Of a DNA stretch of 64,000 nucleotides, positions 8,842 through 44,045 are shown in pieces (position 1 is the first letter of the stretch; each line of letters starts with the position of its first letter). Made by a program: the position numbers and the translations under genes. This DNA is from an uncultured Alphaproteobacteria bacterium (GTDB taxonomy: Bacteria; Pseudomonadota; Alphaproteobacteria; Rhodobacterales; Rhodobacteraceae). The notes beneath the pieces were generated by a model that did not search any database, had not been told where the DNA came from, and saw only the letters and a list, made by a program, of their open reading frames with translations. Where the stretch lies: assembly GCA_902625475.1 (NCBI GenBank), contig CACOBR010000003.1, positions 62,001 to 126,000 on the forward strand. Direction: 5' to 3'.

Positions 8842-8955
8842 AAAGGCTCAAAAGGTGGAGTAAAAGGTGGACTTTTTCAACTTTTCATTTCCAATATGAC
8901 AGATATGACACTTATGACACCCACCCCCAGCCATATCCTTGAGGGTACCCAGAAA
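8842..8955 (+). repeat. dispersed intergenic repeat, copy 1 (left half)
   Basis: ..AAGGTGGACTTTTTCAACTTTTCATTTCCAATATGACAGATATGACACTTATGACACCCACCCCCAGCCATATCCTTGAGGGTACCC.. Confidence 0.85.
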
Positions 8956-9056
8956 TTCATCATTAGTTATTTCGATATACTTGATAAGTATTGAAATAAA
9001 AACACATAAAAATTACTATTATCAATATTAAAAATATAAGATAACCAAGGATTAAA

Positions 9057-10115
9057 ATGATTGTCGATTGTGAGGGTTCTTCAATTGAGTGTGGCCTATG
9101 TCATGGTGAGGAGGCTAGAGAACTTATTAGATATGCGATAAAACAATGGGAAGAAGAAATTTTATCTAAAAAGGGAAATAATCGATCAGCATTTAAAAAT
9201 TATATAAGTGATTTTCTTAATAATACTTCCCTTATAGATTCTATGAAATATCAAACCCCTGATCTTATAGAAGAGATGAAAGGAATTGCAAAAGGAAGTG
9301 GAATTTCTTTTGAAAAAATTGCTGCTTACAATCTTATGGATGAGCAATGGTGGTATGACCTTTCAATAAGAAATACTGAACCTGGATGTAGTCTAATTGG
9401 AATAAAAAAAGGAAAAGCTTCTTTATTGGGACAGAATATGGATTTACCAGCATTTATGGATGGATCACAAATTATTTTAAGAATTTCATCATTACACAAA
9501 CCAAGAAAAATATTACTTACTTCGGCAGGACTAATTGGTTTAACTGGAGTAAACGACCAAGGTATTGCAGTTTGTGTAAATACACTTTTAATGTTGCGTT
9601 CAAATTCTAAAGGTCTGCCAGTTGCAGCAGTATTAAGGTATCTTTTGGAAGAAAAAAAATTAGAAAATGTTAAAAATAAATTAACACACATCAATCATGC
9701 ATCTGGACAACATTATGCATTTGCAAATAAGAATGAATTAAGTGGCTATGAATCTTCAGCTTCTGGAAGCGTAAAAAGTTCAATTGATGGGAGTCAAATT
9801 CTCTTGCATACTAACCACCCCTTGGTTTCCAAGGATATTAATTCAAGAGCTAAAAAAATTATAAAAGAAAATAGAAGAATTAAAAACTCAGAGGAAAGAC
9901 TTGGTTTTTTAAAAAATCAAATAAACAAAAAAATGACTGAAAAAGACATAATTGAATTACTTTCAGATATAAGTACTCCTCTATGTGCAAAACCATCACA
10001 AAAATATAGAGGTCAGACTTTTGGGTCAATTCTCTTTAAACTAAGTGAAAATGTAAAAATATTTTATTGTTTGGGGATGCCTGGAAAAGCCAAGTGGAAA
10101 TCATTAACTTTCTAA
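9057..10115 (+). CDS. C45-family autoproteolytic acyltransferase/hydrolase
   Basis: NTEPGCSLIGI..GQNMD: candidate N-terminal-nucleophile Cys after GC and conserved downstream motif. Confidence 0.75.
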   Translation: MIVDCEGSSIECGLCHGEEARELIRYAIKQWEEEILSKKGNNRSAFKNYISDFLNNTSLIDSMKYQTPDLIEEMKGIAKGSGISFEKIAAYNLMDEQWWYDLSIRNTEPGCSLIGIKKGKASLLGQNMDLPAFMDGSQIILRISSLHKPRKILLTSAGLIGLTGVNDQGIAVCVNTLLMLRSNSKGLPVAAVLRYLLEEKKLENVKNKLTHINHASGQHYAFANKNELSGYESSASGSVKSSIDGSQILLHTNHPLVSKDINSRAKKIIKENRRIKNSEERLGFLKNQINKKMTEKDIIELLSDISTPLCAKPSQKYRGQTFGSILFKLSENVKIFYCLGMPGKAKWKSLTF

Positions 10116-10206
10116 TTTTATAAAATTATAGTTTCTATTTATTAATAGGAATTTTATTATTAATGCGTTAAATTTAAAAAAATGTATATTTATAAAATAT
10201 CAAAAC

Positions 10207-11412
10207 TTAATTTAAACTTATTTGCGTAGAAGATAACCTTTCACAGCCTTCATCTGTGACTAGGATAGGTTCTCCAACATATATTTGTATAGGATAATCA
10301 GCTATTTTAAAAACAGGAAAACGCGAAACTAAAAAAAATGTCATGTTTTTTTCAAGTATATGATAGTCAGTTTCTTTAATTCGTAAATCGTCTAACCAAG
10401 TAGGAGGATAGCCAATTCCAATGCCATATCCATGATGTGCTCCAGGAATGTGCAAATCCTTTTCAATTAGCGTTTGATTTATTTTTCGGGCAACATCAGC
10501 GGAAGCAATCCCAGCTTTAATTATTGAACGTGCCTCTTTTTGGGCTGTAAGTAGTCCATCAAATGCTCTTTCAACTTCTTTTGGAGGTTCACCTAACCAC
10601 CAAGTTTGTACGCCAACTGCATGATACCTAAAGCGTGAACTTCCAGGCTCTATTGTAATATGTTCACCTAATTTGATTACCCGGTCAACAGCAGCACCAT
10701 GAGTGTTAGACATTGATCTTGGACCACTTGATATAGGAGGTACTATAGCAGGTACGTGACCTCCAGCGTTAAACATTCCGCTCATTGCAGCTCCTAAAAC
10801 TTCAGTTTCTAGTACCCCAGGTTTAAAAACATTAAGTGCTGCATTGTAGGCTGAATCCAAAACCTTTCCTGCTTCTTTCATATAAACTACCTCTGAGTCA
10901 GTTTTTATTTGTCTAAGATTGGTAACTATTCGAGATGCATCTACTAAAGAGCATTGATCTTTTAAGCTTTTTTCTAGTTCTACATAATATTTAGGTAGTA
11001 AAGCATGGCTTCCTAATTCTATTCCAATTCTATTTTTTTGCTTTAAAGCTTTTAAATCGAAAAGCATCTCAATTGTTAATTCAACTGGACTTTTGTTGGA
11101 GTCGTCTATCCAATTACGCACTTCTTTTACGTAAGGAAGACCTTCTATAAAATTATGATCAGCTGGTCTACATAAAACAGTTATATCTTCTTTATTAACA
11201 TCGATAACAGCAGTTTGATAAACCCAATATCCTAATTGGTCATAGCCAAATAAATAATACATACTTTCCTGATGAAATAGCAATAAGAAGTCAATTTTTT
11301 CTTTAATCATCTGAGAACGGACAGCATCAATGCGATTTTTATATTCACCATTTTTAAATGGCAAAGGCATTCCTATGACAGTTGTCACTTCGTCAGTAGG
11401 ATAATATGACAT
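10207..11412 (-). CDS. M24 family (Xaa-Pro/creatinase-like) peptidase
   Basis: Creatinase N-terminal domain plus GHHGYGIGIGYPPTW-type M24 motif; start MSYYP preferred because of an upstream GGAGAG. Confidence 0.85.
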   Translation of the reverse strand: MSYYPTDEVTTVIGMPLPFKNGEYKNRIDAVRSQMIKEKIDFLLLFHQESMYYLFGYDQLGYWVYQTAVIDVNKEDITVLCRPADHNFIEGLPYVKEVRNWIDDSNKSPVELTIEMLFDLKALKQKNRIGIELGSHALLPKYYVELEKSLKDQCSLVDASRIVTNLRQIKTDSEVVYMKEAGKVLDSAYNAALNVFKPGVLETEVLGAAMSGMFNAGGHVPAIVPPISSGPRSMSNTHGAAVDRVIKLGEHITIEPGSSRFRYHAVGVQTWWLGEPPKEVERAFDGLLTAQKEARSIIKAGIASADVARKINQTLIEKDLHIPGAHHGYGIGIGYPPTWLDDLRIKETDYHILEKNMTFFLVSRFPVFKIADYPIQIYVGEPILVTDEGCERLSSTQISLN

Positions 11413-11526
11413 TTTATCTCTCCTGTATGTATACAAACAATTTTATTAGAATTAAATAATAACGTACTGATAATCTCATTGTTCAAATTTTTAAATAATA
11501 AAAGCTAACATTTTTTTACATGAATT

Positions 11527-12942
11527 TCATCTAAGTAATTCACAAAATTGTGATAGGTTTTTAACATCCTTAAAATTTCGCAAAATATCAATAACTTCAG
11601 ATGTCTTTTTCCTACCCAGATAAGGTTCTACAAGTTGACAAAATTTATTTGTAATTTCTTTTGATGACCAAGGATGGTTAGTTCCACCTCTGGCAACTAA
11701 TACTCGATGAGAAAATGAACGTTTATCGGTAGTCCTAATTGTTACTACAGACATTGTTTTTCTTTCATCACTAAAATGACGCCTCTGTGCTTCTTTCTCT
11801 TTATAACTATGAATAATGTCAGCCACGGCATGAGCTTTTGGATCTCTGAGTATCGATTTAGAGTACCATTTTGGTCCTTTGGGTATACCAAGCAACACCA
11901 TGGCCGTTGGCCATTGTAAAGAAAATTCTGCATCAACCATACTTTTGGGTCGGGGATCGTTAAATAGAGTTACTACGTCTTCAAAAGTTCCTACATCAAC
12001 TCGAGCAATATCTGATAACTTTAATTTATTCTGTTTAATTATAATTTCAGTAGCCTCTAGTGCTGAATGAACCCATCGACAAGCTGGATATGGTTTAAAG
12101 CTTAATTCTTCCACTGTCCAACGGGTTCCAAGCTGGTTTGTTAAATATTCAAAATTGCAGCGGTCGGAGCCTGCCATGATCCAAAAACCAGACGGTCCAT
12201 CTAATATATCCCGGCTTCCTTGCCATCCATTCGCTGCTAATATGGCAGCACGTACTCCAGCTTCAGCTGGTAAAGCAGTCATATCTTTTGTTGAAGAAAG
12301 AGGCCTATCTCTCCAGTTCCATTTTCTAGCTGCAGGAAGAGTTGAAAATGTTGCTGCTAGTCCAAAGGCATTTTTTAATTGCTCAAGTGAAAGTTTCATT
12401 AATTTTGATGCCACTATCGCTGAACCAAAACTTTGGTGTACTGCTACGCCCCAGACTTGTTTATGTCTTTTTGGAGTCGGTTGTATAGCTTGAATAATTC
12501 GGTTAGTTACTTCATAACCTGCAACAATTGCCGAAAGAATTTCTTCACCAGATGCACAAACTTTTTCTCCAACAGCAATTGCTGTTGGAATAATTGTTGA
12601 ACCAGGGTGACCCATACCCTTACCATCATTTTCAAATGCATCATCATAGTCTAATGCGTTAGCTTGTATACCATTTTGATATGCTGCCAACGCCATTGAA
12701 GTTTTATATTTTCGCCCCATTACAGTTGATTGGTTTGCTCCCCCTAATTCTTTAACCATTTTTTCACTGGCTATTGCTAAACTAGTATTAGCTCCTCCTA
12801 TAGTACATCCTATATTATCCAATAAAGCTTTTAATGTAGCATTCAAGGCTGATAATGGAACTTTTTCAATAGAAATGTCGTATGCAAAATGGGTAAGAAT
12901 TTCAGTTTGGCTTTTGCTATTTATTACCTCAGGATTTAGCAT
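11527..12942 (-). CDS. MmgE/PrpD family protein
   Basis: LDNIGCTIGGA, ALDYDDAFENDGKGMGHPGS and PYPACRWVHSALEA motifs. Confidence 0.9.
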   Translation of the reverse strand: MLNPEVINSKSQTEILTHFAYDISIEKVPLSALNATLKALLDNIGCTIGGANTSLAIASEKMVKELGGANQSTVMGRKYKTSMALAAYQNGIQANALDYDDAFENDGKGMGHPGSTIIPTAIAVGEKVCASGEEILSAIVAGYEVTNRIIQAIQPTPKRHKQVWGVAVHQSFGSAIVASKLMKLSLEQLKNAFGLAATFSTLPAARKWNWRDRPLSSTKDMTALPAEAGVRAAILAANGWQGSRDILDGPSGFWIMAGSDRCNFEYLTNQLGTRWTVEELSFKPYPACRWVHSALEATEIIIKQNKLKLSDIARVDVGTFEDVVTLFNDPRPKSMVDAEFSLQWPTAMVLLGIPKGPKWYSKSILRDPKAHAVADIIHSYKEKEAQRRHFSDERKTMSVVTIRTTDKRSFSHRVLVARGGTNHPWSSKEITNKFCQLVEPYLGRKKTSEVIDILRNFKDVKNLSQFCELLR

Positions 12943-13080
12943 TAATTTATTTCCATTTTTCTAACTATTATTTGAATTTAACTTTTTTAAATTATAATTT
13001 ATAAAATGAACTTTATTGTCAATTCATGATAAAACAAATTAAACTTAATAATAAATTACCTTTACATATTTTTTCTAAAA

Positions 13081-13220
13081 CGATGAGAAAATGGTCGATT
13101 CCCTAGTAGTTATCAAGGGGGACTTTAAGGGGGAGAATTTTGAGTTTTCGTTTTCAATATGACACTTATGACACCCACCCCTAAGACATATCCTTGAGGG
13201 CACCCCCAAAAACCACAAGT
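13081..13220 (+). repeat. dispersed intergenic repeat, copy 2
   Basis: ..GTTATCAAGGGGGACTTTAAGGGGG..GAGTTTTCGTTTTCAATATGACACTTATGACACCCACCCCTAAGACATATCCTTGAGGGCACCCCCAAAAACCA.. Confidence 0.9.
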
Positions 13221-13273
13221 AGTTTAGCTGTAATGAGATTTTAACAACTATACTCTTGATATATTTTATAAGT

Positions 13274-13567
13274 TTATTTCTCAATTATGTGCTTTACTAC
13301 CATGTCACCTGACAATCTAAAATCTTCCTCAAAAAGTTGTTTTAATTCTCCAGAAACGCGGCTTTCAGCAAGCTTTTTTGACTTCACCCTTGCTTCTTCA
13401 TTTGGGTAAACTGATATAGCAATTGCACTTGTATCTGTTAGTTTAATAAACATTAACATTTCAGCATCAGGATAAAGTTTTGGACTATCATTCTGATACA
13501 TATTAATAAACTCATCTAGAGATGCTTTATTTTTAAAATTCATTGAAACTACATTTGTGGGTGTCAT
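13274..13567 (-). CDS. small hypothetical protein (monooxygenase/ABM-fold-like)
   Basis: 97 aa ORF ahead of and behind intergenic DNA; no strong motif. Confidence 0.55.
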   Translation of the reverse strand: MTPTNVVSMNFKNKASLDEFINMYQNDSPKLYPDAEMLMFIKLTDTSAIAISVYPNEEARVKSKKLAESRVSGELKQLFEEDFRLSGDMVVKHIIEK

Positions 13568-13599
13568 ATCTAATCCTTCAAAAAAGAAATAATTTTTAT

Positions 13600-13821: not shown

Positions 13822-13869
13822 CTTTATTGTTTCCGTATTATTTGTTTTATTTCTTAATAATTTTATATC

Positions 13870-13995: not shown

Positions 13996-14038
13996 CGCCC
14001 TGCAGGGGTAAGTCTACACCATATTCTTTATTAAATAT

Positions 14039-15029: not shown

Positions 15030-15150
15030 TTAAAATACACTTAATACCTCTAAAACATATCCTTGAGGGTACCCCAAAAACCATAGCATATTGTTAGCAA
15101 GTACGACTACTCACACATTTTGGGTATGAATATAAAAATCTTTAATCTTC
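15030..15150 (+). repeat. dispersed intergenic repeat, copy 3
   Basis: ..ACATATCCTTGAGGGTACCCCAAAAACCATAGCATATTGTTAGCAAGTACGACTACTCACACATTTTGGGTATG..ATCTTTAATCTTC. Confidence 0.9.
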
Positions 15151-15157
15151 TTTTGAA

Positions 15158-16279: not shown

Positions 16280-16400
16280 AAACCCCATTCCTAAAACTCA
16301 TAGCCTGTTATTAGCAAGTACTACTGCTCACACATTTTGGGTGGGGAAGGTAAACATCTCTAATCTTCACACATAAGATATTTCATGTAATATTATTCTG
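16280..16400 (+). repeat. dispersed intergenic repeat, copy 4 (right half plus extension)
   Basis: CATAGCCTGTTATTAGCAAGTACTACTGCTCACACATTTTGGGTGGGGAAGGTAAACATCTCTAATCTTC.. Confidence 0.88.
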
Positions 16401-17551: not shown

Positions 17552-18154
17552 ATGAAAAAATTAGTTGCAACTCTGTTCCTTATTGTAACCCTTGCCTTTG
17601 GAAGCTTTGGTGTGGGTTGGAGTGGTGATTTTCAAAAGGGAGTGGATGCGTATGAAAAGGGCGATTATGCCACTGCATTGAAGGAATGGACACCTTTAGC
17701 TGATCAGGGACATGCTAAGGCTCAATATAATTTAGGTGTTGCGTATGCAAACGGAGAAGGTGTTCTTCAAGATTATAAAACTGCTGTTAAATGGTATATT
17801 CTTTCGGCTGAACAGGGACATGCCAAGGCTCAATATAATTTAGGTATTATGTACGATAATGGACAAGGTGTTCCTCAAGATTATGAGGCTGCTGTAAAAT
17901 GGTATATTCTGTCGGCTGAACAGGGAAATGCAGAGGCACAGTACAATCTTGGTGTGATGTACGCTCTTGGCCAAGGTGTGATAGAGGACAAAGTTTACGC
18001 TCATATGTGGGGAAATATATTAAATTCAAATGGGCATGAAGATGGTAAAAAGATAATGGATTACCTTCTAAAACAAGGAATGACCCCTTCACAAGTTGAG
18101 AAGGCACAAGACTTAGTAAGAGAGTGTATTAAGAAGAACTATAAAGGGTGTTGA
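17552..18154 (+). CDS. secreted Sel1-repeat protein
   Basis: Signal peptide MKKLVATLFLIVTLAFGSFGVGWS then AQYNLGVMYxxGQGVxQDYxxAVKWYxLSAEQG repeats; ATG 17552 preferred over the ORF-track start. Confidence 0.88.
   Translation: MKKLVATLFLIVTLAFGSFGVGWSGDFQKGVDAYEKGDYATALKEWTPLADQGHAKAQYNLGVAYANGEGVLQDYKTAVKWYILSAEQGHAKAQYNLGIMYDNGQGVPQDYEAAVKWYILSAEQGNAEAQYNLGVMYALGQGVIEDKVYAHMWGNILNSNGHEDGKKIMDYLLKQGMTPSQVEKAQDLVRECIKKNYKGC
17706..17950 (+). repeat. tandem 108-bp coding repeats (Sel1)
   Basis: Near-identical successive units GGACATGC(T/C)AAGGCTCAATATAATTTAGGT...GCTGAACAGGGA. Confidence 0.8.
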
Positions 18155-18739: not shown

Positions 18740-18815
18740 AGCACTACATCCACCCCTAAGACATATCCTTGAGGGTGCCCCAAAAAACCCAAAGTATATA
18801 TATTGGTAAGTAGTA
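18740..18815 (+). repeat. dispersed intergenic repeat, copy 5
   Basis: ACTACATCCACCCCTAAGACATATCCTTGAGGGTGCCCCAAAAAACC. Confidence 0.85.
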
Positions 18816-21028: not shown

Positions 21029-21130
21029 AAGGTGGCCTTTTTTGAGTTTTCGTTTCAAGATGTCACACATGTCATCCACCCCTAAGGCATATTCTTAAGG
21101 TTACCCCAAAAACCTTTAATTGTTGTTAGA
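21029..21130 (+). repeat. dispersed intergenic repeat, copy 6
   Basis: AAGGTGGCCTTTTTTGAGTTTTCGTTTCAAGATGTCACACATGTCATCCACCCCTAAGGCATATTCTTAAGGTTACCCCAAAAACC. Confidence 0.85.
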
Positions 21131-21206
21131 TAATAATAATAACTAATCTATAAAAATAGAAATACATCTGAACAAAAAAAATAATTGGAAATTAATTATA
21201 ATAAGA

Positions 21207-22442
21207 CTAAAGAGTTTGAAATTTTTTTATTTTATTATATACCGCTTTTTTAAGTTCAGTAAACGTGTCAACAGAATTTCTATAATGTATTGATCTGTTA
21301 GATACTATTAAACTATCATTTTTATTCTCCAACATTTTGATATAGTTTTCTATAATTATTTTACTTTTATTTATGTCAGTACGATTTATAGATAAAAATT
21401 TAATATCATAGTCACTTATTAAAATTTTTTCAAAGTGCTGATTGAAAAATATTGTTGTACTTTTAAGCATTTTAAGGATGGCTATTTTATTTTCAATTTT
21501 AGAAGTAAATTCTTTTTCAACTTGAATATAATTAATATAATCTTTTTTTCTTAAAACTTCTGGGAAGGAAATTCTGTCGATAAAATATTTATTATCTCCA
21601 ACAAGTATTTCTGTTTGAGCTACTTTAATTTTTTTCTTTATAAAAATTGTCATTATTAAGTACTTATTTTTAATAAAGTCCAAATTGATACCATCATCTT
21701 TCATGGACTTAATTAGATTAATAGGATAAACGAATAGATTTTTTTCAGAAGAATTATTTGCAAACTGAATTTTTCTAAAAGGGCAAAAATTGAATTTTTT
21801 ATTATTATAACCTTCCTCAATAATTTGACTTAATTCTTCTCTTAATTTTTTCTGAAATTCTTCAAAACCACCTTCTTTTGGATACGCAATAGATCTATCT
21901 TTATTTTTATAATTTTCAAAATGATAACTCTGACCACATAAAACTTCATATTTCAGCTCTTTAGGAACAAACCAAGGCTCAATATTTATTAAAAAGTCTT
22001 TTTTTGAAGTTTTAAAATAATTTTTTAACAATTTATTTTGTTCATAGCTTTTAAGAATATTTGTTAATAAGTATTTGTTGTAAAATAATTTCAGAGTATT
22101 GCTTTTTTCATCTTGTATATATGACTTTAAGATCTCAGGGTCTTTAATTTCTTTTAGGGAAAAATTCCTTCTAAAAATTTGATTGTTAAAAAACAAATTT
22201 CTATTAGCCGTTGATTTTACAATTTTGATTCCTGAACTTGATATAAGATCAAAAAACTCAGAATTTCTTTCTATTTCTATAGCATGATAGCCATAATCAA
22301 ATTTCATATTTCTAAAACTAAAAGAATTATCGAGATTTTTGGAAGGCTTTACCACAATTCTACAACTTATATTGTCACAAAGGAGTTTCTTAGCTAATAA
22401 CAAACCTTTGAGATCATTTGAAAAAATAAAAACCTTCATCAA
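21207..22442 (-). CDS. hypothetical protein with Rossmann/FAD-like N-terminus
   Basis: N-terminal VFIFSNDLKGLLLAKKLL and FDYGYHAIE resemble amine-oxidase/UDP-galactopyranose-mutase-like proteins, weakly. Confidence 0.45.
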   Translation of the reverse strand: MMKVFIFSNDLKGLLLAKKLLCDNISCRIVVKPSKNLDNSFSFRNMKFDYGYHAIEIERNSEFFDLISSSGIKIVKSTANRNLFFNNQIFRRNFSLKEIKDPEILKSYIQDEKSNTLKLFYNKYLLTNILKSYEQNKLLKNYFKTSKKDFLINIEPWFVPKELKYEVLCGQSYHFENYKNKDRSIAYPKEGGFEEFQKKLREELSQIIEEGYNNKKFNFCPFRKIQFANNSSEKNLFVYPINLIKSMKDDGINLDFIKNKYLIMTIFIKKKIKVAQTEILVGDNKYFIDRISFPEVLRKKDYINYIQVEKEFTSKIENKIAILKMLKSTTIFFNQHFEKILISDYDIKFLSINRTDINKSKIIIENYIKMLENKNDSLIVSNRSIHYRNSVDTFTELKKAVYNKIKKFQTL

Positions 22443-23620: not shown

Positions 23621-23813
23621 TGAGAATTAAATCCCCTACTTTTATAGAAATAAAATAATATTTCTAGTACTATTACAACAAATATCGCAATCATTACAAT
23701 TATGTTAAAGAAGGTCTGAGACCTCTAATCTTAAAATGCGTCACTTATCAGCTACTTCTCTACAAGCATAGTATACTTGAACTTCACGTTTCTTAGCATA
23801 GTCAAGTAAAAAG

Positions 23814-23867
23814 TGATCGGGGTGATTGGATTCGAACCTACGACCTATGGTACTCCAAAAGCCATAG
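23814..23867 (-). pseudogene. tRNA-Pro-like 3' remnant (anticodon-arm-like hairpin, T-arm and acceptor 3' strand)
   Basis: Reverse strand CTATGGCTTTTGGAGTACCATAGGTCGTAGGTTCGAATCCAATCACCCCGATCA: contains GGTTCGAATCC and CACCCCG acceptor strand as in bacterial tRNA-Pro; no 5' half (D-arm) seen. Confidence 0.7.
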
Positions 23868-23890
23868 CCTATTATTAGCACGTATTCCTC
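23846..23890 (+). repeat. dispersed intergenic repeat, copy 7 (right half joined to tRNA-Pro-like remnant)
   Basis: TATGGTACTCCAAAAGCCATAGCCTATTATTAGCACGTATTCCTC. Confidence 0.85.
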
Positions 23891-25599: not shown

Positions 25600-25792
25600 A
25601 TTATGATAAGTACGATAAAAAGATGGTTGATACTCTAGTAGCAATCCAAGGGTGATAAAAGGGGGACTTTTTTGAGTCTTCGTTTCCAATATGACACTTA
25701 TGACATCCACATCTAAGACATATCCTTGATGCCACCCCAAAAACTATAGCCAATTGTAAGAAAGTATTACTACTCATACATTTTGGTTTGGG
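25600..25792 (+). repeat. dispersed intergenic repeat, copy 8 (longest, near full length)
   Basis: ATGATAAGTACGATAAAAAGATGGTTGATACTCTAGTAGCAATCCAAGGGTGATAAAAGGGGGACTTTTTTGAGTCTTCGTTTCCAATATGACACTTATGACATCCAC..CATTTTGGTTTGGG. Confidence 0.9.
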
Positions 25793-26099
25793 ATAACTTA
25801 ATTTAAATTAACTAAAATATACCAAAAAAAGTAGCTATTAATTTTACAATTTCTTATTGTCTTTTAACAATATCTTTTTCTTCTAACTTTTCAAAGTGAG
25901 ATAAAATATCAATAGTCTTTCTATTTGCTAGTTCTGTTTGACTGGATGAATTACTTATTAAAAATTTTATTACAAAATTTGTATACCCTATAATTTATTT
26001 GATAATACAAATATTAGAAAAATTTTTTCATACCCAAAGGCCAGTGAAATCGATCTGTTAACACGATATTTACATGTCTAACCTGAAAAGGTGTCTTGG

Positions 26100-27287
26100 C
26101 TATTTGTGGTCAAGTGCTCTACCCATTTTTCGATAATACTCTTGTGCTGCTGCAACGCCCGACCCAGCTTCAACCTCCATAATGCCTACATCTCGCATTG
26201 CCATTTCAGCTCCAGATATTGCACTAATAAGCATTAACTCATTCAAGTCGCCCAAGTGCCCTATTCTGAATAGTTTTCCTGCAACGACGGACAGTCCTGC
26301 ACCTAGGCTTAATCCATAACGGTGATAAGCGTGTTTGATTACCCGGTTTGCATCTTTGCCCTCAGGAACTAGAATAGCTGTTACGGTGTCAGAATACCAT
26401 TGGGGTTCCTTCGCACAAAGAGATAGTCCCCAAGCGGATACAGCTTGTCTGACCCCTTCTGCTAGAAAAGAATGCCTTGCGAAGATATTTTCCAAACCTT
26501 CATCAAAGATCCTATCTAACGAGGCTCGCAAACCACGGAGAAGGCTCATTGGTGGTGTATAAGGAAAATAACCTGTAGCGTTTGTTTTTACCATATCTCC
26601 AAAATCAAAATAGCATCTTCGCATGGAAGCGTTTTCAGATGCTTTTATAGCTTTCTGACTGGCAGCCATAATTGCTAAGCCAGCTGGTAGCATAAACCCT
26701 TTCTGGGATCCTGAAACAGCTAAATCTACGCCCCATGCATCCATTTGAAAGTCTACAGACGCAATTGAACTTACACCATCCACGTATAGCATAGCGTGGT
26801 GATTGGCATCATCCATGATATTTCTGATCGCTCCTATATCAGTTTTAACACCAGTAGCAGTTTCGTTTTGTGTTGCAAGGACTGCTTTTATAGTTCCGCT
26901 TTTGTCAGCCGATAGGATTTCCCGGAACGTTTCCATCGGCATTCCTGTTCCCCACTCGCATTCTACGACCTGGACGTTTAATCCTAGTCGTTCACACATG
27001 TCTATCCAAAGATGGGAGAATTGTCCAAATCTCGCAGCAATTACCTTATCACCAGGATTAAGCGTATTAGTAACTGCGGCCTCCCAGGCTCCTGTCCCTG
27101 ATGCGGGAAAAATAAAAACCTGCCCTGAAATGGTTTTAAAAACTTTTTTAACATCATTTAACAATGGAAGAATAAACTCAGGTAAGTCGGGAGCTCTGTG
27201 ATCTTCCATAGGTACGTCCATCGCTTTTCTTATTACATCAGGTATGTTTGTTGGGCCTGGAACGAAAAGACTTTTTCTTAAAACCAT
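26100..27287 (-). CDS. serine-glyoxylate aminotransferase-like class V aminotransferase
   Basis: FVPGPTNIPDVIRKAM, DGVSSI and GSQKGFMLPAGL (PLP Lys) motifs. Confidence 0.88.
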   Translation of the reverse strand: MVLRKSLFVPGPTNIPDVIRKAMDVPMEDHRAPDLPEFILPLLNDVKKVFKTISGQVFIFPASGTGAWEAAVTNTLNPGDKVIAARFGQFSHLWIDMCERLGLNVQVVECEWGTGMPMETFREILSADKSGTIKAVLATQNETATGVKTDIGAIRNIMDDANHHAMLYVDGVSSIASVDFQMDAWGVDLAVSGSQKGFMLPAGLAIMAASQKAIKASENASMRRCYFDFGDMVKTNATGYFPYTPPMSLLRGLRASLDRIFDEGLENIFARHSFLAEGVRQAVSAWGLSLCAKEPQWYSDTVTAILVPEGKDANRVIKHAYHRYGLSLGAGLSVVAGKLFRIGHLGDLNELMLISAISGAEMAMRDVGIMEVEAGSGVAAAQEYYRKMGRALDHK

Positions 27288-28925: not shown

Positions 28926-28990
28926 GAGCAATATGATAATCCCCGAGGGTTACCCTAAAAACCATGGCCTATCATAAGCAAGAAATATGA
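28926..28990 (+). repeat. dispersed intergenic repeat, copy 9
   Basis: CCCCGAGGGTTACCCTAAAAACCATGGCCTATCATAAGCAAG. Confidence 0.78.
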
Positions 28991-30099: not shown

Positions 30100-30155
30100 G
30101 TGAACAGCTAAACGCTATTTCACTGGGTTTGGCAAGAGTGGATCCTACACATTAA

Positions 30156-30270
30156 AAATATGATACTTATGAAACTCATGTCACCCGCCCCTAAGATATA
30201 TCCTTGATGGCAACACAAAAACCATAGCAAATTATTAGCAAGTGCCACAGCTCATATATTTTGGTTGGAA
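30156..30270 (+). repeat. dispersed intergenic repeat, copy 10
   Basis: ATATGATACTTATGAAACTCATGTCACCCGCCCCTAAGATATATCCTTGATGGCAACACAAAAACCATAGCAAATTATTAGCAAGTGCCACAGCTCATATATTTTGGTTGG. Confidence 0.88.
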
Positions 30271-30321
30271 AAAATAATTATTAACTATTTAATAGTTCAA
30301 AATTTATTTTTGTAATCATTA

Positions 30322-31071
30322 TTGAATTTAAAGGTAATTAACATGAATAATCTTAAAGAAAAAAAAGCCTTAATAATAGGAGCTAGTGGTGGAATGGGGA
30401 CTGCTGTGGCATCGATGCTTTCAAAAAATGGTGTTCATTGTTTCTTAGTTGGACGAAGTCAAGAAAAACTGAATGATATTTTTTCAAGTTGTTCTTCATA
30501 TGGAAACCCTTGTTTTATGTTCTCATGTGATATTTCAAATATGACTGAAATTAAAAAATGTTCAGAAAATGCAATTAAAAGTCTTGGTGGATTGAATTTT
30601 CTTATTCATTGTGCTGGCAATTATAATAAAGCTTTAGCTGATGAATGTGATCTAGAAATTTGGGATAAAATAATAGATACAAATTTGCGTAGTACTTATC
30701 ATTTTGCAAGAAACGTTCTTCCAGAAATAAATAAAAATTCTGGTGGTGCTGTAATTAGAATTAATTCAAGAGATGCTCCATATACTGGGATAGGCATCCA
30801 AACGTCTCAGAAACGAGGTATTGATGGATATATGGAAGTATTATTTGAGGATGTTAGAGAATATGGAACAAAAGTCTGCACAATTAATCCAGGATTTGTT
30901 GATACCTCTATGGTTAACCCTGAACGATTAAATCCTGAACTTATGATGCAACCGAATGATATAGCTGAAGCAGTTAATTTTGTTCTTAATACTTCAGAAA
31001 CTGCCTGTCCAACTGAAATATTAATACAGCCGCAGCGATCTCCATGGAAGAAAGCTGATATGCACATATAA
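30322..31071 (+). CDS. short-chain dehydrogenase/reductase
   Basis: IIGASGGMGTAVA (TGxxxGxG variant) and SDR fold; canonical YxxxK is replaced by TSQKR. Start could be ATG 30343. Confidence 0.8.
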   Translation: MNLKVINMNNLKEKKALIIGASGGMGTAVASMLSKNGVHCFLVGRSQEKLNDIFSSCSSYGNPCFMFSCDISNMTEIKKCSENAIKSLGGLNFLIHCAGNYNKALADECDLEIWDKIIDTNLRSTYHFARNVLPEINKNSGGAVIRINSRDAPYTGIGIQTSQKRGIDGYMEVLFEDVREYGTKVCTINPGFVDTSMVNPERLNPELMMQPNDIAEAVNFVLNTSETACPTEILIQPQRSPWKKADMHI

Positions 31072-31165
31072 CATACACCCCTAAGACATATCTTTGAGGG
31101 TAGAGCAAAAACCATAGCCTATTTTACCAAATACGACTGCTAACACATTTTGGTTTGGGGTGGGT
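31066..31165 (+). repeat. dispersed intergenic repeat, copy 11
   Basis: ACACCCCTAAGACATATCTTTGAGGGTAGAGCAAAAACCATAGCCTATTTTACCAAATACGACTGCTAACACATTTTGGTTTGGGG. Confidence 0.88.
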
Positions 31166-31404
31166 TGGTTTTTTTATTATTTAAAGTCAAAAATAACACA
31201 TCAAGGTTGAATTTAGTTATATTAAAATCAAAATTTACTCATCCAAAATAAAATCTTACGTCAGGTAATGGTTGCTGCCAACAAAATATTTTACTTTATT
31301 AGTTGAGCCAGCTTTAGTCAGCATAGGTAGTTTTAGAAATTTAATTATACCTAAATCTTTTAAAAATTTACGAAAATTAATTCTTGATATGGGGGAAATA
31401 AATA

Positions 31405-31839: not shown

Positions 31840-31969
31840 TAACTCTGACAATACAATATTTGTAGATACTATAAATGGTAGAATACTTAATTTACTCATA
31901 ATTATTTATACCAATCTTCTTGTTTTTATAAATAGGGTGAAAAGTTTAAATAAAATCTAGATTGTTTTG

Positions 31970-32085
31970 GTTTTAACATAACTAACATAACACCTACTCC
32001 TAAGACGTATCCTTGGGGGTAGGATACCACAAAAACCTATTATTATTTTAGTAAGTACTACCGCTCACATATTTTGGTTGTAAAG
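31970..32085 (+). repeat. dispersed intergenic repeat, copy 12
   Basis: AACATAACACCTACTCCTAAGACGTATCCTTGGGGGTAGGATACCACAAAAACC..AGTAAGTACTACCGCTCACATATTTTGGTTG. Confidence 0.85.
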
Positions 32086-32173
32086 TTAAGGAAGTCTGAT
32101 CTTTTCAGATAAAAATTTTTGAGTCATTATTAAAAACTAATGAGAATCTTGTGTATATGTGTTCTTTTAGTAA

Positions 32174-33289
32174 ATGAGGAGTCTTCGATTGAACAAAGGG
32201 AATGAGGCATATGAAATCGTACGTGTCTTTTCTAAGATGGGCATTCACCGCACTGGAACGCAGGGAGACCACAACACATTGTGTTGGCTTGGTTCTGAGT
32301 TGGCAGTCGATGGAGCGGATGTTTCATTTCAGAAGTTCCCATACCATCATTTCGATGCTGAGCTGAGTGTTTGGAGCGCAGGTAAATCAATCGAAGCAGA
32401 GGCGCTTTACTATTCGTTCACTGGGCAACGTAATCTGAGCAATCTTGCAACTGGTGTTGTCGATGCACATGGAGGTGAAGACGTGATTTCCCGTGAGATT
32501 GGTTGTATGGTTGCTGCTAGGAAAGAAGATGGCTTTGATGGGCTAGTTCTTGCAACGAGATGTCCCACAGGAGATTTATGCGCGATTAATCGGGATCATA
32601 AAATGGATCTAGAGTTCCCAGTTGTTCTTGTTGCACAGGATAATCTGAACAAAATCAAAACCAGCAGTGCTGAAATATTTTTCACAGCTTCAGTTCAGAA
32701 ACGCATGGCAAGAAATGTAATAGCTCGCTTTTCTGGTCCAACTGGTGCCCAAAGAGTTATCGTGACGACACCAATATCGGGCTGGTTTAGGTGTGCTGGA
32801 GAAAGAGGGTGTGGATTGGCTATTGCGATCTTCGTGTCTAGGCAGCTATCAAAAAGTTTTGCAGTCGATCTTCTGCTCACAAGCGGCCATGAGCTTGGTA
32901 TGTGTGGTGGATACCATTTAGCTCAAAACTACAACGCTAAACCTAAATGTGTGCTTCATCTCGGATCTTGTATCGCTAATTTCGATGCAAAGACGACCGC
33001 TATCTGTTCTACCAATTCCGTGACAGCTGGGCATATTGCTAGCGCTTTAAAAAGGCTTGGCATCAAATTGGTAAATCTGTCTGATCCTACCAATAAGGAA
33101 AATTGGGTCGGAGAATCGATGTGTTGGGTGTCAAATAATTGGCCAATACTTTCAATAGCTGGACTGTCCCCCCATTTTCACGCTCGTAGCGATCTACCAG
33201 AAGTCGTGACTAATCCAGGTCTTCTTGGTACAGCGATTGAAGTCATTATGGATTCTATACTAGCACTAGCTAACCAAGGGAAAACTTAA
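32174..33289 (+). CDS. M28-like peptidase-related protein
   Basis: TSGHELGMCGGYHLAQ and overall layout resemble M28 aminopeptidases; GC-richer than neighbours. Confidence 0.55.
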   Translation: MRSLRLNKGNEAYEIVRVFSKMGIHRTGTQGDHNTLCWLGSELAVDGADVSFQKFPYHHFDAELSVWSAGKSIEAEALYYSFTGQRNLSNLATGVVDAHGGEDVISREIGCMVAARKEDGFDGLVLATRCPTGDLCAINRDHKMDLEFPVVLVAQDNLNKIKTSSAEIFFTASVQKRMARNVIARFSGPTGAQRVIVTTPISGWFRCAGERGCGLAIAIFVSRQLSKSFAVDLLLTSGHELGMCGGYHLAQNYNAKPKCVLHLGSCIANFDAKTTAICSTNSVTAGHIASALKRLGIKLVNLSDPTNKENWVGESMCWVSNNWPILSIAGLSPHFHARSDLPEVVTNPGLLGTAIEVIMDSILALANQGKT

Positions 33290-33459: not shown

Positions 33460-33530
33460 AGGTAGGATACCCCAAACACGATAGCCTATATTAGCAAGTA
33501 CTTCTGCTAACACATTTTTGTTTGGATAAG
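33460..33530 (+). repeat. dispersed intergenic repeat, copy 13 (right half)
   Basis: GGTAGGATACCCCAAACACGATAGCCTATATTAGCAAGTACTTCTGCTAACACATTTTTGTTTGGA. Confidence 0.85.
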
Positions 33531-33616
33531 TAAAGCTAATGATTAAAATATGAATCATAGCCTTAACGTAACGTCATGTTTGAAGTAAATAGTGGCTTTA
33601 CCTAACATCTTTTTAA

Positions 33617-36035: not shown

Positions 36036-36055
36036 AAGATTTTAACTCACATTTA

Positions 36056-37508: not shown

Positions 37509-37516
37509 AAAAATAA

Positions 37517-39329: not shown

Positions 39330-39439
39330 AATTTTGAACCTTTAATTAGATTTATTTTGTTTATCCTATGACAATTCTATTTTAAATGTAATTTTGCTAT
39401 AATGACCTAACGTAATAAACAGTATTTTTTTTAATTCTC

Positions 39440-39724
39440 CTAGTTAGGTAACCAATCTTCACCTATTGGAGAAATTACAGTAGTACTTGCTACATCAGCA
39501 CCAGCTTCAGTGCGAGCTTTGAATATATCTGGTCTTTCCCCAAAAGTTTTCATTTGAGATGCATTTTCCATGTGCACAACCATGAAAATTTTACTTTCTT
39601 CTGGGTTTGTTCCAGCCCAAATCATTTTTACACCAACTTTTTCCATTTCAGGATTTAAACTTTCAGCCATTTCCTTCCAACGTGCAAAACCTTTGGATAT
39701 ATTTACAGTCACTAACATTTTCAT
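39440..39724 (-). CDS. DUF3764-like small protein
   Basis: MLVTVNISKGFARWKEMAES..MIWAGTNPEESKIFMVVHMEN pattern. Confidence 0.6.
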   Translation of the reverse strand: MKMLVTVNISKGFARWKEMAESLNPEMEKVGVKMIWAGTNPEESKIFMVVHMENASQMKTFGERPDIFKARTEAGADVASTTVISPIGEDWLPN

Positions 39725-40197
39725 AAGATTCTCCTTTATGATTTTTTTATATTCCTTTAGTCAAGTATTCAGTGCACTGCTGCCCATCCGGCATCTAGGT
39801 CGTAGTGAACTCTGGTATTATAGAATTTAATAATCCTTGTGCCTATAAAAAAATCTTGAATACACTTATTGTAGAAGAAAACTTAACTTTACTTTAGCAA
39901 CTTCTACTACGCACTATTATTTAGTTATTTTTGAGTTTATTTTTGTAAATTTAATATTCTTGCAAATCATTAAAGGTTATTGTATATATTTTTTGTTGCA
40001 GGGGGGATCTTTGATTTTCTAGACTTAGCGCTGAGCAAGCCTTAAGCCAAGCGAGTCACTGCAACACCATTTTTTAATTTTTAAATTACTGTTGATACCT
40101 CCGCTAACATATTTAAGGACGTAATTAATTATATATAAATATAAGTTTTTTTATTTACTAATTTAGAATGCATTTGAAAATTATGCTTACTTCATTT

Positions 40198-40285
40198 GTT
40201 AGTATGATAAGAAAACATATAGTGAACTAGTTGCTATTCAAAGTTCACAAAATAGGAACTTTTTTGTAGAACTTAGATAAAATAT
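40198..40285 (+). repeat. possible degenerate left end of the dispersed repeat
   Basis: AGTATGATAAGAAAACATATAGTGAACTAGTTGCTATTCAAAG.. compared with copy 8 left end. Confidence 0.4.
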
Positions 40286-40370
40286 AATAAGCTTGAAAAA
40301 GTTGATAGGAGGTTATCACTTTTTTTATTGTTTTTTTGGATGATAATAATCACTTTCCCCATTAATTTAA

Positions 40371-40545
40371 AGAGTAATCGATACCTAATCTAATGAGGAA
40401 AATACCTAATATAAACTTTATAGATAAAGTGCCCGATTTTTTTTATCTCTTAAAAGACTGAAAAAGCTGACTTAAAGGGGCAGTTCGTAAGAGTTTCATT
40501 TAAATTTGACAGTCAAGATACTTATAAAATCTACCCTTTGGATAT
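40371..40545 (+). repeat. recO 3'-end duplication plus degenerate repeat left half (copy 15)
   Basis: AGTAATCGATACCTAATCTAATGAGGAAAATACCTAAT aligns with ATTAATCGATACCCTATCTAATGAGGAAAATACCTGAT at 8761-8799; similarity continues into the repeat. Confidence 0.75.
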
Positions 40546-40606
40546 ATTCTGATTCACACAATTCAAAAATCCTATTCTGTTAAAAAAAAGTAAATAACTT
40601 TATACA

Positions 40607-41071
40607 TTATTCTCTTTGATCTAGATTTTCTAATAATTCTTGAAGTCTCTCCAAGGTTCCATTATCACAAAAAGACTCAATTATAGATGGAGCTCTTTGC
40701 ATCCATTTGGGTCTGTTTTCTGACCATAATTCAACGGTTGGTTTAAATTCTATTTGATCTCCTAAAAGTCCTGCTGGAACATAAGCCATTCCTTCAAGGA
40801 GGTCAGGTTTATTATATATAAAACAACTACAAGATGGGCAATAATAGTAATACATGTCCATCCCACTACCACCAACTATTTTATAAGATTTCAAATTTCC
40901 GGTTATATTAATTTCATGTTCGGGCCAAGCTAAAGCAGAAATAGAAGTTCCAATTCTTTGATGGCATATAGAACAATGACACATAAACTGCATCATAGGG
41001 TCATGTTCCATCTCGACAGTTATTTCACCACAATGGCATTTTGCACTATATTTCATTGGTATTTTCTCCAT
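40607..41071 (-). CDS. GFA family (glutathione-dependent formaldehyde-activating-like) protein
   Basis: CHCGEITVEM, CHCSICHQRIGTSISALAW, YCPSC zinc-binding Cys pattern. Confidence 0.88.
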   Translation of the reverse strand: MEKIPMKYSAKCHCGEITVEMEHDPMMQFMCHCSICHQRIGTSISALAWPEHEINITGNLKSYKIVGGSGMDMYYYYCPSCSCFIYNKPDLLEGMAYVPAGLLGDQIEFKPTVELWSENRPKWMQRAPSIIESFCDNGTLERLQELLENLDQRE

Positions 41072-41149
41072 CTCTGAAACTTACTTTCAATAAATTATAC
41101 GACCAGAAATTGATTTTTGTAAAATGAAAAATATAGGGAAAATATGCAA

Positions 41150-41360
41150 AGGTGTGCGGTAAAGGGTGTGGTTAGTTAATTTTTCATAATAATATGACAG
41201 TTATGACACCCACCCCTAAGACATATCTTTTAGGGCACCTCAAAAATCATAGCATATTTTATCAAGTACTACTGCTCAAATATTTTGGTTTGGAAAGCAA
41301 ACATCTCTAATCTTCCAATATAGTATATTTCGTATAATATTCTTTTATGAAAATTTTATT
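41150..41360 (+). repeat. dispersed intergenic repeat, copy 16 (plus extension shared with copy 4)
   Basis: AATATGACAGTTATGACACCCACCCCTAAGACATATCTTTTAGGGCACCTCAAAAATCATAGCATATTTTATCAAGTACTACTGCTCAAATATTTTGGTTTGGAAAGCAAACATCTCTAATCTTCC. Confidence 0.9.
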
Positions 41361-41624
41361 ATTATTATTAATTTGTTTATTTTTTCCACCTTTGGCATTC
41401 ATTACGTGTAAGATCACAACTAAGACACAAATAATAAGGTCCTGAAAAATTATAAACATCCATACAACGACTTTTAGGTTTTTTTATTTTTATTTTATCG
41501 GAGCATTTGTCATTTAGAAATATAATTATTATTAAGAGTATAGATGGAAGTGTACTTTATTGATACATAGCTTTAGTAATTAAGAAGAAGATATAAAAGG
41601 CTGGAAAAATATTGGGAGAACTAA

Positions 41625-42443
41625 ATGACAGTAAGAATTGAAAAAGAAGGTAATGTTTGGACTATTATTCACTCAAGACCAGAAGCACGTAATGCTATGG
41701 ATCCACAAAGTGCCGACGATCTGACATCCGCTTTTTTAGAATTTGACACAAACCCTTTAGCAGATGTTGCTGTCTTTTGGGGCGAGGGAGGCGCATTTTG
41801 TTCTGGTTGGGATTTGAAATATGTATCTACGCTTGATAAACAATATCCACTTAAAGAATTAGACATACCCAAAGATGGTGGAAAACGTGGTAATGGTGGC
41901 GATATTGCCCGAGGACCGCTAGGACCGAGTAGGCTTGAATTAGACAAACCTGTAATTGCAGCAGTTTCAGGGCCTGCTGTAGCGGGTGGAATGGAGTTAG
42001 CACTTTGGAGTGATTTTAGGGTAATGGAGCGTACTGCATACCTTGGGGTTTATTGCCGCCGATGGGGTGTCCCGTTAATAGATGGGGGAACTGTTAGACT
42101 TCCTAGAATAGTGGGACAGGGACGAGCATTAGAAATAATATTGACTGGAAGACAAGTTATGGCTGAAGAATGTGAAAAATTGGGTCTATGTGAATATGTA
42201 GTTGAAGAGGGTGGAGCAAGGAAAAAAGCTGAAGAGTTAGCTCATGAAATTGCTCGCTTTCCGCAAACTTGTGTCCGTGCCGATAGACGTTCTGCTATAA
42301 ACCAAAGAAACTTAAACATTCGAGACGCTCTAATAAATGAATGGTATAATGGGAGAGCAGCTTTGATCGAGGATGGCGTCGACGGAGCATCTCGTTTTAA
42401 AAGTGGTTTAGGTAGGCACGGTGATTTCAAAAATATAAAATGA
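41625..42443 (+). CDS. enoyl-CoA hydratase/isomerase family protein
   Basis: SRPEARNAMD, GGAFCSGWDL, PVIAAVSGPAVAGGMELALW motifs. Confidence 0.92.
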   Translation: MTVRIEKEGNVWTIIHSRPEARNAMDPQSADDLTSAFLEFDTNPLADVAVFWGEGGAFCSGWDLKYVSTLDKQYPLKELDIPKDGGKRGNGGDIARGPLGPSRLELDKPVIAAVSGPAVAGGMELALWSDFRVMERTAYLGVYCRRWGVPLIDGGTVRLPRIVGQGRALEIILTGRQVMAEECEKLGLCEYVVEEGGARKKAEELAHEIARFPQTCVRADRRSAINQRNLNIRDALINEWYNGRAALIEDGVDGASRFKSGLGRHGDFKNIK

Positions 42444-42865
42444 CAGGGACTTATAAAACAATATCAGAAAATAATTTTATAGCTTTTTGCAAAGATACAA
42501 TCCCATCAGTAAAAAATTTTGAAGTAAAACTAAAAAAGTTTGAAAAATCTGGTGTAGAAATTGATTATTTTCCTGACAAAAAGCATGTTGGTAAAAGAGA
42601 CAGGTTCTGGACCCAAAACTTATTTACTGCAGCGGATATGGTCTCTTATGGTTGCATACTTTGCAGATACCCAAACGCAATACAATCTGTCACTATAAAT
42701 TTTAGCGGAAATTTTTTTGCCACAGAACAGGTTTGTAATGTTCGTGTTTCTAGTACAATTCAAGAATATGAAGAAAAATTCGCACACTCCACAGTAGATA
42801 TAGTTACATTTTCAAAGCAAATGATAGCAAAATTGACTTGTAATTATCTAATAATAGGAAAATAA
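42440..42865 (+). CDS. hypothetical protein
   Basis: ATGA overlap with the upstream CDS. Confidence 0.6.
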   Translation: MTGTYKTISENNFIAFCKDTIPSVKNFEVKLKKFEKSGVEIDYFPDKKHVGKRDRFWTQNLFTAADMVSYGCILCRYPNAIQSVTINFSGNFFATEQVCNVRVSSTIQEYEEKFAHSTVDIVTFSKQMIAKLTCNYLIIGK

Positions 42866-42920
42866 AAAATATCTTCTTAAAAAAAACATAATAGATGGAA
42901 TAATAGTGTACTGAATCAAC

Positions 42921-43931
42921 ATGGATCCAATATCTCAAGGAACTGTTGGCGCAGCTTTTGCGCAGTCTACAGCTAATAAAAATAATATCATCAAGATTGG
43001 TATTATAGGTTTTCTAGCAGGGTTGGCCCCTGATTTAGATGTTTTTATTCGTTCTTCTACTGACCCAATTCTATCTCTTGAGTACCACAGGCAGTTTACT
43101 CACTCGCTGTTTTTTATTCCCATTGGCGCTTTGATTGTTACTCTTGTGATCTTTCCCTTGGTTAAAAAGTCACTAAGTCTGAAGACTGTCTATGTGGCGA
43201 GTTTTTTTGGATATACAACTCATGGATTGCTGGATGCATGCACTTCTTACGGCACGTTACTCTTTTGGCCTTTTTCCAACGAGCGAGTTACCTGGAATAA
43301 TATATCTGTTGTTGATCCAATTTTCACCATTCCTGTATTGGTCTTGACTGCAACCGCTATAATAATCAGAAAACCACTAATAAGTTTTTTTGCAATTGGA
43401 TGGATGATTTTATATCTTTTATTAGGATTTGTACAATATGAAAGAGCATTTTTAGTTGCAAATGATCTTGCGCATACAAGAGGACATAATCCAGAGCGTC
43501 TGACGCTAAAGCCGTCATTTGGTAATCTGATCTTATGGAAGTCAATTTATCAGTATGAAGAAAACTTTTATGTTGATGCAATTCGAACTGCATTATCCTC
43601 AACTTGGTGTTTGGGAGAAAGTATTCGAATGTTTGACTATCAATATCATCTGCCCAATCTAGATATTGACAGCCAACAAAGAAAGGATATTGAAAGGTTC
43701 CGTTGGTTTTCTCAGGACTATTTGGGGTTTGACTATGAAAAAAGTCTAGTCACAGACGTTCGTTACTCTATGGTTCCAAATCAAATTGCACCGATGTGGG
43801 GTGTGGTCATTGATACTCAGAAAAGCAAGAATGAGCATGCGATTTGGTGGACAAGTCGTACTCTAGAGCAAAGTCAGTTAGACATGTTTAAAGATATGTT
43901 AATTGGGAAAACGTGTAGAAACAGTTTTTGA
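42921..43931 (+). CDS. YdjM-like membrane-bound metal-dependent hydrolase family protein
   Basis: MDPISQGTVGAAFAQ, APDLDVF, HRQFTHSLFF, HGLLDACTSYGT motifs. Confidence 0.88.
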   Translation: MDPISQGTVGAAFAQSTANKNNIIKIGIIGFLAGLAPDLDVFIRSSTDPILSLEYHRQFTHSLFFIPIGALIVTLVIFPLVKKSLSLKTVYVASFFGYTTHGLLDACTSYGTLLFWPFSNERVTWNNISVVDPIFTIPVLVLTATAIIIRKPLISFFAIGWMILYLLLGFVQYERAFLVANDLAHTRGHNPERLTLKPSFGNLILWKSIYQYEENFYVDAIRTALSSTWCLGESIRMFDYQYHLPNLDIDSQQRKDIERFRWFSQDYLGFDYEKSLVTDVRYSMVPNQIAPMWGVVIDTQKSKNEHAIWWTSRTLEQSQLDMFKDMLIGKTCRNSF

Positions 43932-43980
43932 TATTAATATATTAGGAATTCGCGGGAAAGAGTTTTCAGATTTTCTGATG

Positions 43981-44045
43981 CTTCCACAATAACTATAGCA
44001 TATTTTAGTAATTTATTCTGCTTAAATATTTTGGTTTGGAAAGAT
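43981..44045 (+). repeat. dispersed intergenic repeat, copy 17 (right half)
   Basis: CACAATAACTATAGCATATTTTAGTAATTTATTCTGCTTAAATATTTTGGTTTGGAAAG. Confidence 0.75.

Follow-up and report, generated by a model that had tools for sequence, protein, structure and literature searches.

A repeat-bounded cassette array at recO in a Rhodobacteraceae genome, probably formed by tandem accretion of integrative elements that have since lost their integrases

The stretch of DNA analysed here (the window; 64,000 nucleotides (nt) from an uncultured member of the Rhodobacteraceae, GenBank assembly GCA_902625475.1, contig CACOBR010000003.1, positions 62,001 to 126,000) contains, between the genes recO and psd, an array of approximately 35 kb in which a repeat of approximately 130 nt separates short segments of cargo. 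The recO gene (8057-8797, + strand; matches to RecO_N and RecO_C), whose 3' end serves the array as its target on the chromosome, is followed by repeats from 8.85 to 44.05 kb, and psd, likewise confirmed, lies beyond them at 47328-48020. The 15 inter-repeat segments, or cassettes (8961-43976; characterized from the listing of open reading frames (ORFs), Pfam and cross-genome matches), hold one or two genes each, with metabolic or regulatory cargo in both orientations. Among 12 genomes of the genus, all but one of them less than 90% complete (the present assembly measures 1.5 Mb and is 66% complete), the array starts at recO in five (the present one, G297, G300, G301 and G304). The evidence set out below indicates that integrative elements probably accumulated in tandem at the recO 3' end and have since lost their integrases.

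The cargo names proposed in a first-pass annotation of the window, made from its sequence alone, agree with Pfam, which recognizes AAT/C45, M24, MmgE/PrpD, MORN_2, Sel1, 5'-nucleotidase, PALP, M32, Aminotran_5, 2-Hacid_dh, EamA, SDR, guanylate/adenylate cyclase, GFA and ECH matches among 26 ORFs of at least 120 amino acids (aa) from recO to the right flank. That annotation had further stated that no ORF from recO to psd resembles an integrase, transposase, resolvase or phage protein, and for intact genes this holds: none was recognized among the array ORFs scanned (26 with Pfam, and 10 with PHROGs, one of them outside the Pfam set; the overlapping opposite-strand ORFs at 9326-9694 and 26803-27201 lay outside the Pfam scan). 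The whole-assembly search for recombinases that it had advised returned four six-frame matches to PF00589, none of them on the window's contig, and no match to PF00239, so that from all four scans no intact recombinase was found in the array. The accompanying claim that no recombinase is visible was not confirmed, as the C-terminal ends of fossil integrases lie directly 5' of three of the window's repeats.

An intact homologue of these fossils is present in the array of AG-910-B21 (G300), where a PF00589 scan of the 12 genomes, which also returned Xer-like and other integrases, located a 411-aa protein at G300:C1:263920-265152. In this protein the phage integrase domain is accompanied by a SAM-like domain at the N terminus and by a weak match to an arm-binding domain, and PHROGs places it with phage integrases; sequence comparison relates it, among solved structures, to an integrase (3nkh) and three Int proteins, with IntI4 last at E 6e-4, those ranked ahead of IntI4 being phage or transposon integrases. 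Its gene forms the right-hand end of the segment that comes first after recO in that genome, a stretch of 10 kb that has replication-type genes and encodes an AAA_25 protein, a helix-turn-helix (HTH) protein and a protein of 1,944 aa in which hemolysin-type repeats are recognizable by eye; the integrase gene is followed in order by 84 nt, a recO end and a repeat. With the 411-aa integrase as a tblastn query, its last 20-100 residues, often interrupted by stops, were found just 5' of many repeats, some of them in the window. The three fossil tyrosine integrase C-termini in the window, all on the + strand, lie at 13079-13156, where the remnant runs into repeat copy b (stub profile E 8e-5; six-frame reading), at 25602-25673, with two stops (tblastn 75% over 24 aa; profile E 3e-9), and, as a weak match, at 40176-40265 (profile E 0.0038; tblastn 43% over 30 aa, E 0.37). 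The stub profile, built from 17 sequences (the integrase and C-terminal ends) and run on the 300-nt flanks of all 197 repeat copies mapped in the genus, matched the left flank on the + strand at 18 of the 197 copies at E 0.01, whereas each of the three control sets (left flank on the other strand, right flank on both) gave no match at any of the 197; because the profile was partly built from the same ends, the count of 18 is partly by construction, an effect that leaves the controls untouched. Elsewhere in the present assembly, a tRNA-Ser has next to it, at G000:C1:108790-110829 (L025), a second integrase together with a broken gene that is related to the array integrase at 33% identity and contains one stop; this site is approximately 32 kb from a second repeat cluster on the same contig.

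The end of recO carries a pattern that reads as the usual mark of integration into a gene end, many times over. When recO was compared with that of the window, the 690 nt before position 8759 were 71-96% identical and the 58 nt after it 90-97%, with a jump at 8759 in the two distant genomes, G304 and G297 (from 76 to 90% and from 71 to 93%). These 58 nt (8759-8816, + strand) correspond to an element-borne recO 3' end, as indicated by the identity jump between species and by displaced copies that mostly begin at 8754-8759; the last approximately 40 nt of recO travel with the elements, and the crossover may be placed at or just before the start of the element-borne end, at 8754-8762. A displaced second recO 3' end with its downstream flank is found at 40369-40501 (+ strand; 72% over 134 nt, E 9e-13), and across the genus copies of the recO 3' end occupy the left flank of 23 of the 197 repeats (five of the 23 being the chromosomal recO itself), the displaced ends being situated between integrase stub and repeat. 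In G090, G295, G296, G302 and G303 the recO site is empty, with another ending and no repeat after it; one of the remaining recO loci is cut by a contig end, and in one genome no recO was found. At two of the empty sites, checked for ORFs, the next gene lies on the opposite strand, tens of nt away, and is by eye an acyl-CoA dehydrogenase.

Comparable displaced ends are found at tRNA genes. In G304, G090 and G303 a remnant of the family integrase is followed, 99, 111 and 135 nt on, by a tRNA-Gln 3' half beginning at nt 28, 31 and 30, respectively, with an intact tRNA-Gln elsewhere on the contig; the array contig of G302 contains one intact tRNA-Ser(CGA) and three displaced 3' parts, all from nt 29, and no family integrase was found in that genome despite the fragments. 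In the window, where ARAGORN detects no intact tRNA, repeat copy g, a right half (23837-23889), is joined to an antisense tRNA 3'-half fragment, the whole spanning 23811-23889 (+ strand; refined profile and sequence comparison); this fragment is termed tRNA-Pro-like from the reading of its anticodon arm, no intact gene having been found. All the breaks in the tRNA-Gln, tRNA-Ser and tRNA-Pro-like fragments are located in the anticodon arm, the part of the three tRNAs to which GGTACCCCAAAAACCATAG, the conserved repeat middle, is similar, so that the repeat core would be a tRNA-type attachment core. At G303:C8:45001-46876 (L122) a tRNA-Gln is flanked by two repeats of opposite orientation, with a similar layout in G304:C1 (L102), which implies that elements can occupy both sides of one target. 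The sequence that follows tRNA-Gln in L102 (GCCATATAAATAACGGGTTT, 8119-8137) nearly equals that following recO in array genomes (window 8802-8821; 19 nt, 95%, E 4e-4), as if the recO-targeting attachment region had descended from a tRNA-Gln-targeting one.

The repeats on which the first-pass annotation had built its argument are real: a first profile, made from ten copies, identifies 15 window copies at E < 3e-4, each on the + strand, and nothing on the - strand below E 1, and a refined model of 162 positions identifies 16, again all on the + strand. In a genus-level search the repeat is present in 10 of 12 genomes at E 0.01; in a family-level sample it is present in two of 295 at E 0.001 (the present assembly and one congener), the genomes of the family's other members being mostly 3-5 Mb. 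The 197 copies were mapped with nhmmer across the 10 genus genomes, in 40 fetched array-bearing or flanking stretches, the window and two more stretches of the present assembly; since these stretches were chosen for holding repeats, 197 is no whole-genome count, and eight of the copies represent four near-identical copies of one locus (L128-L131). Adjacent copies are co-oriented in 153 of 156 cases, at a median spacing of 1,269 nt (quartiles 769 and 2,086), and arrays of four genomes contain 12 to 26 sites. Cargo ORFs are intact, with a median longest ORF of 265 aa, and in 150 cassettes the longest ORF lies on the same strand as the repeat in 77 and on the opposite strand in 60, the other 13 being without an ORF of 80 aa. 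Each repeat is laid out as arm-type repeats of 9-nt period followed by a conserved core, and the motif AAAACCRT occurs in 78 of the 139 copies that cover the middle. When five window copies were folded as DNA and compared with shuffles (z -2.07, -0.43, 0.15, -0.32 and -0.13), one of the five folded better.

Both profiles identify, on the + strand, copies a (8866-8960, a left half and the first of the array), b (13129-13216), c (15045-15148), d (16290-16367, right half), e (18742-18815), f (21031-21137), h (25661-25795, full), i (28939-28982, partial), j (30154-30281, full), k (31047-31176, full), l (31965-32103, full), m (33464-33535, right half), n (41165-41314, full) and o (43977-44052, a right half and the last of the array); the refined profile adds a left half behind the displaced recO 3' end (40477-40550, +). 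Other copies in the same assembly lie at the end of contig C1 (four, +) and at the end of C35 (one). Among the cargo, the ORF at 32174-33289 looks by eye like a putative zinc peptidase, and the fold predicted for the ORF at 21207-22442 is uninformative (mean predicted local distance difference test score 32). Three tandem 108-nt repeats at 17663-17986 lie within a Sel1 cargo gene, and similar repeat genes occur in several other arrays.

Two kinds of observation bear on where exchange occurs within the repeat. Among the 197 copies, 26 are half copies that begin at columns 77-80 and 17 are half copies that stop at columns 79-84, which suggests a fixed junction near GAGGGTACCC. Pairs of sites with one common neighbour were analysed by a change-point method together with simulation, in pair sets with and then without recO-copy left flanks; the final set, in which columns 45-115 were covered and each site was used once, comprised 17 of 33 left-shared and 21 of 31 right-shared pairs. 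The switch falls before column 57 in 10 of the 17 left-shared pairs and after column 125 in 10 of the 21 right-shared pairs, and the repeat middle is in many cases linked to neither neighbour. Repeated exchanges at varied positions in the repeat would leave the middle unlinked in this manner, unlike a lone site-specific core, and the change-point analysis with its simulation does not support one fixed crossover point within the repeat. Gene conversion within genomes is weak at most, given a copy similarity of 0.79 within and 0.77 between genomes. With exchange points scattered along the repeat in this way, homologous recombination may be what now shuffles the cassettes; present shuffling may proceed by such exchange between repeats, by an integrase in trans, or by both.

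Cassettes are shared between species, with 13 of the 15 in the window matching at least 300 nt in array stretches of other genomes. In G304 (flank identity 79.4%) and G297 (74.0%) five of five shared cassettes lie above the identity of the flanks; cassette 5 is 99% identical to its counterpart in G300 across 2,215 nt, and some shared cassettes are 92-99% identical between species in different contexts. Cassette order is kept in G301 (tau 0.90, n=7, p 0.003), and is not clearly kept in G300 (tau 0.43, n=8) or G304 (tau 0.20, n=5). With respect to possible vehicles, the gene transfer agent marker PF13547 was found in none of the 12 genomes (a Caulobacter control was positive), and two repeat patterns and the integrase gave no match in viral_contigs, near-exact patterns having little power to detect a repeat this variable; the relatives of the integrase in phage records were all below 60% identity (the best, among the matches listed, 29%), several of them from streptococcal satellite phages. 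Separately, segments of approximately 19 to 40 kb, mostly 98.8-99.9% identical, are shared by genomes whose recO genes are 75-93% identical (G300:C2:253202-295661, G301:C1:1-42460, G304:C17 (L128, L171) and G299:C19 (L131, L172)), and carry a transporter that by eye resembles phnCDE, along with a single aquaporin-like cassette bounded by repeats. Either transfer in the recent past or contamination between assemblies would account for these segments; PMC12416821 describes the transfer of genes, among them a phn operon, in marine single-cell genomes.

The interpretation of the array as a tandem accretion at recO is favoured by stubs of the integrase and its intact form in a relative's array, by recO ends both element-borne and displaced, by recO sites without an insertion, by displaced tRNA halves next to related integrases, and by cassettes common to several species. 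At recO, tRNA-Gln and tRNA-Ser alike, the target end is restored by the element and a displaced fragment remains; the integrase adjoins the attachment site, intact in G300 and as stubs elsewhere; and relatives retain an empty target. In the mechanism proposed, each element would have borne a phage-type tyrosine integrase gene whose 3' end abutted the attachment region, represented today by the repeat with its 9-nt-period arm-type repeats and its core like the anticodon arm of the tRNAs that this integrase family targets. Insertion would have exchanged the recO end for the element-borne copy and shifted the old end to the right, after which the majority of elements would have shed the genes for integrase and replication, so that what is left is cargo flanked by attachment sites, with stubs at some of these.

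Several observations weigh against this interpretation. A stub is found at only a minority of the sites, and the co-occurrence of recombinase and repeat that the first-pass annotation had proposed to examine is imperfect: a family integrase is matched in seven of the 10 repeat-bearing genomes, with G297, G301 and G302 unmatched, and a broken remnant is present in one (G295) of the two repeat-free genomes. The core at recO is unlike the tRNA-like core of the repeat, so that one integrase specificity does not account for both, and switches within columns 77-95 number one of 17 and five of 21, as against the 11.6 and 13.6 that simulation predicts if crossover took place at column 82. The search to the right of the window's array did not turn up the downstream neighbour that recO has at empty sites, and no significant polarity of age away from recO was detected in five arrays (rho -0.39 (p 0.06), 0.12, -0.46, 0.11 and -0.19). 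Finally, in near relatives the cassettes exceed flank identity in six of 11 cases (G300, flank 91.7%) and in one of seven (G301, 95.7%).

How the array is shuffled at present is a question on which two rivals compete. One holds that the repeats are now mere homology for RecA, such that cassettes arriving through uptake or phage transfer are recombined by way of the repeats that flank them, with the integrase a thing of the past; this is a serious contender, judged somewhat less than evenly probable. It accounts for the loss of linkage near column 50 in left-shared and column 128 in right-shared pairs, with a middle tied to neither flank, and for the keeping of cassette order in the nearest relative and not in a distant one; it must contend with the fact that repeats approximately 77% identical to each other in the middle are poor substrates for RecA, with a within- versus between-genome likeness that leaves local gene conversion weak, and with sharp-ended half copies that homologous exchange would not be expected to produce. 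Those same half copies, in particular the right halves beginning at columns 77-80, instead fit a present-day integron-like system, in which the cassettes would be non-autonomous mini-elements moved in trans by a family integrase from a rare helper element, as do the one- to two-gene cassettes, the uniform orientation of sites with unbiased gene orientation, the intact cargo, the 92-99% identical cassettes in different contexts and the intact integrase in one relative. That system is nevertheless rather doubtful, given that no intact family integrase was found in the present assembly or most others and that exchange points fall at no single position; circular intermediates are something that assemblies cannot display. 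The first-pass annotation had offered two options, an enzyme acting in trans or one since lost: loss is shown by the three stubs in the window and by the intact integrase that the array of a relative carries, action in trans is plausible, and the pair was incomplete, as spread exchange points fit homologous recombination without a dedicated recombinase. That the cassettes still move, and what moves them, is our inference; in our view, loss of the enzyme and homologous exchange from repeat to repeat account for the greater part of present shuffling, and elements of the family that still bear an integrase would on rare occasions assist in trans.

Two further readings are far less probable. That the repeat is a dispersed element, such as a miniature inverted-repeat transposable element or a regulatory or transcript signal, with no tie to recombination, would agree with its shortness, its partly palindromic character and the one copy in five that folds better than shuffles; it is highly improbable in view of a single orientation per array whatever the strand of the genes, the restriction of the repeats to few loci, and their being bounded by target-gene fragments and integrase stubs, with cassette junctions falling inside them. 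Integrons and superintegrons string many small cassettes together between sites that share one orientation, and the present array is like them in this outline and in repeats of attC-like size. A true integron with a distant IntI is, however, extremely unlikely: it is disfavoured by the folds (four of the five window copies fold no better than shuffles, and so are without an attC-type fold), by the type of the integrase, which has phage-type N-terminal domains and IntI4 as the last of its solved relatives, and by the unbiased gene orientation. No IntI or attI was seen here, and the PF00589 scan of the 12 incomplete genomes, in which no dedicated IntI model was run, returned several integrases, of which the array-associated one is phage-type. 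The island is integron-like in its swapping of genes, yet it is almost certainly no integron.

Among other known systems, tycheposons combine a tyrosine recombinase, replication or helicase genes, a tRNA target and cargo, and to our knowledge do not form a dense array of integrase-less cassettes. The present islands resemble them as marine cargo islands with a tyrosine recombinase and tRNA targets, and differ in having recO as the main target; the intact G300 element, with its integrase, AAA_25 and HTH proteins and cargo, lies at recO. Tycheposons are named in PMC10872708 and PMC12416821. The former also describes the additive flexible genomic island fGI-2 of Ca. Methylopumilus (Methylophilaceae), with repeats of the last 20 nt of tRNA-Lys; an aquatic streamlined genome, an island of variable cargo and recurring target-gene 3' ends are common to both, whereas in the parts of that account covered here no integrase is tied to the repeats, and the present array has an approximately 130-nt attachment region and integrase stubs between one- or two-gene cassettes. 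There is also a likeness to cis-mobilizable elements (CIMEs) and to the accretion of integrative and conjugative elements (ICEs) and integrative and mobilizable elements (IMEs) (cf. PMC5704250 and PMC7563491). Such accretion yields elements that are flanked by att sites, lack an integrase of their own and arise from loss and tandem insertion at one target gene; CIMEs are mobilized after accretion. The window's cassettes likewise contain no integrase of their own between two attachment sites in Pfam, PHROGs and six-frame scans. The CIME, ICE and IME accretions known to us comprise few elements per site, of several kb or more each, unlike the 12 to 26 sites and median unit of 1.27 kb found here.

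The literature searches made here returned no account of the present array, nor any mention that recO serves as a target in this group. In streamlined ocean bacteria much gene variation lies in islands whose turnover mechanism is often unclear, and with sites, a fossil enzyme, an intact copy, targets and empty sites in hand, the trade of single metabolic genes between species becomes directly testable. It may be, although this is put forward tentatively, that the arrays constitute a second cassette system independent of integrons, in which deletion derivatives of satellite-like elements form a genus-wide pool of one- and two-gene units with their own attachment region, moved in trans by a rare phage-type integrase that is intact in a minority of cells, and assembled into arrays of up to approximately 90 kb at recO and tRNA genes. 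If the integrase does act in trans, this would be an integron-like system of separate origin; if it does not, the array would indicate that attachment-site repeats can become a homology-driven exchange zone after the loss of their enzyme.

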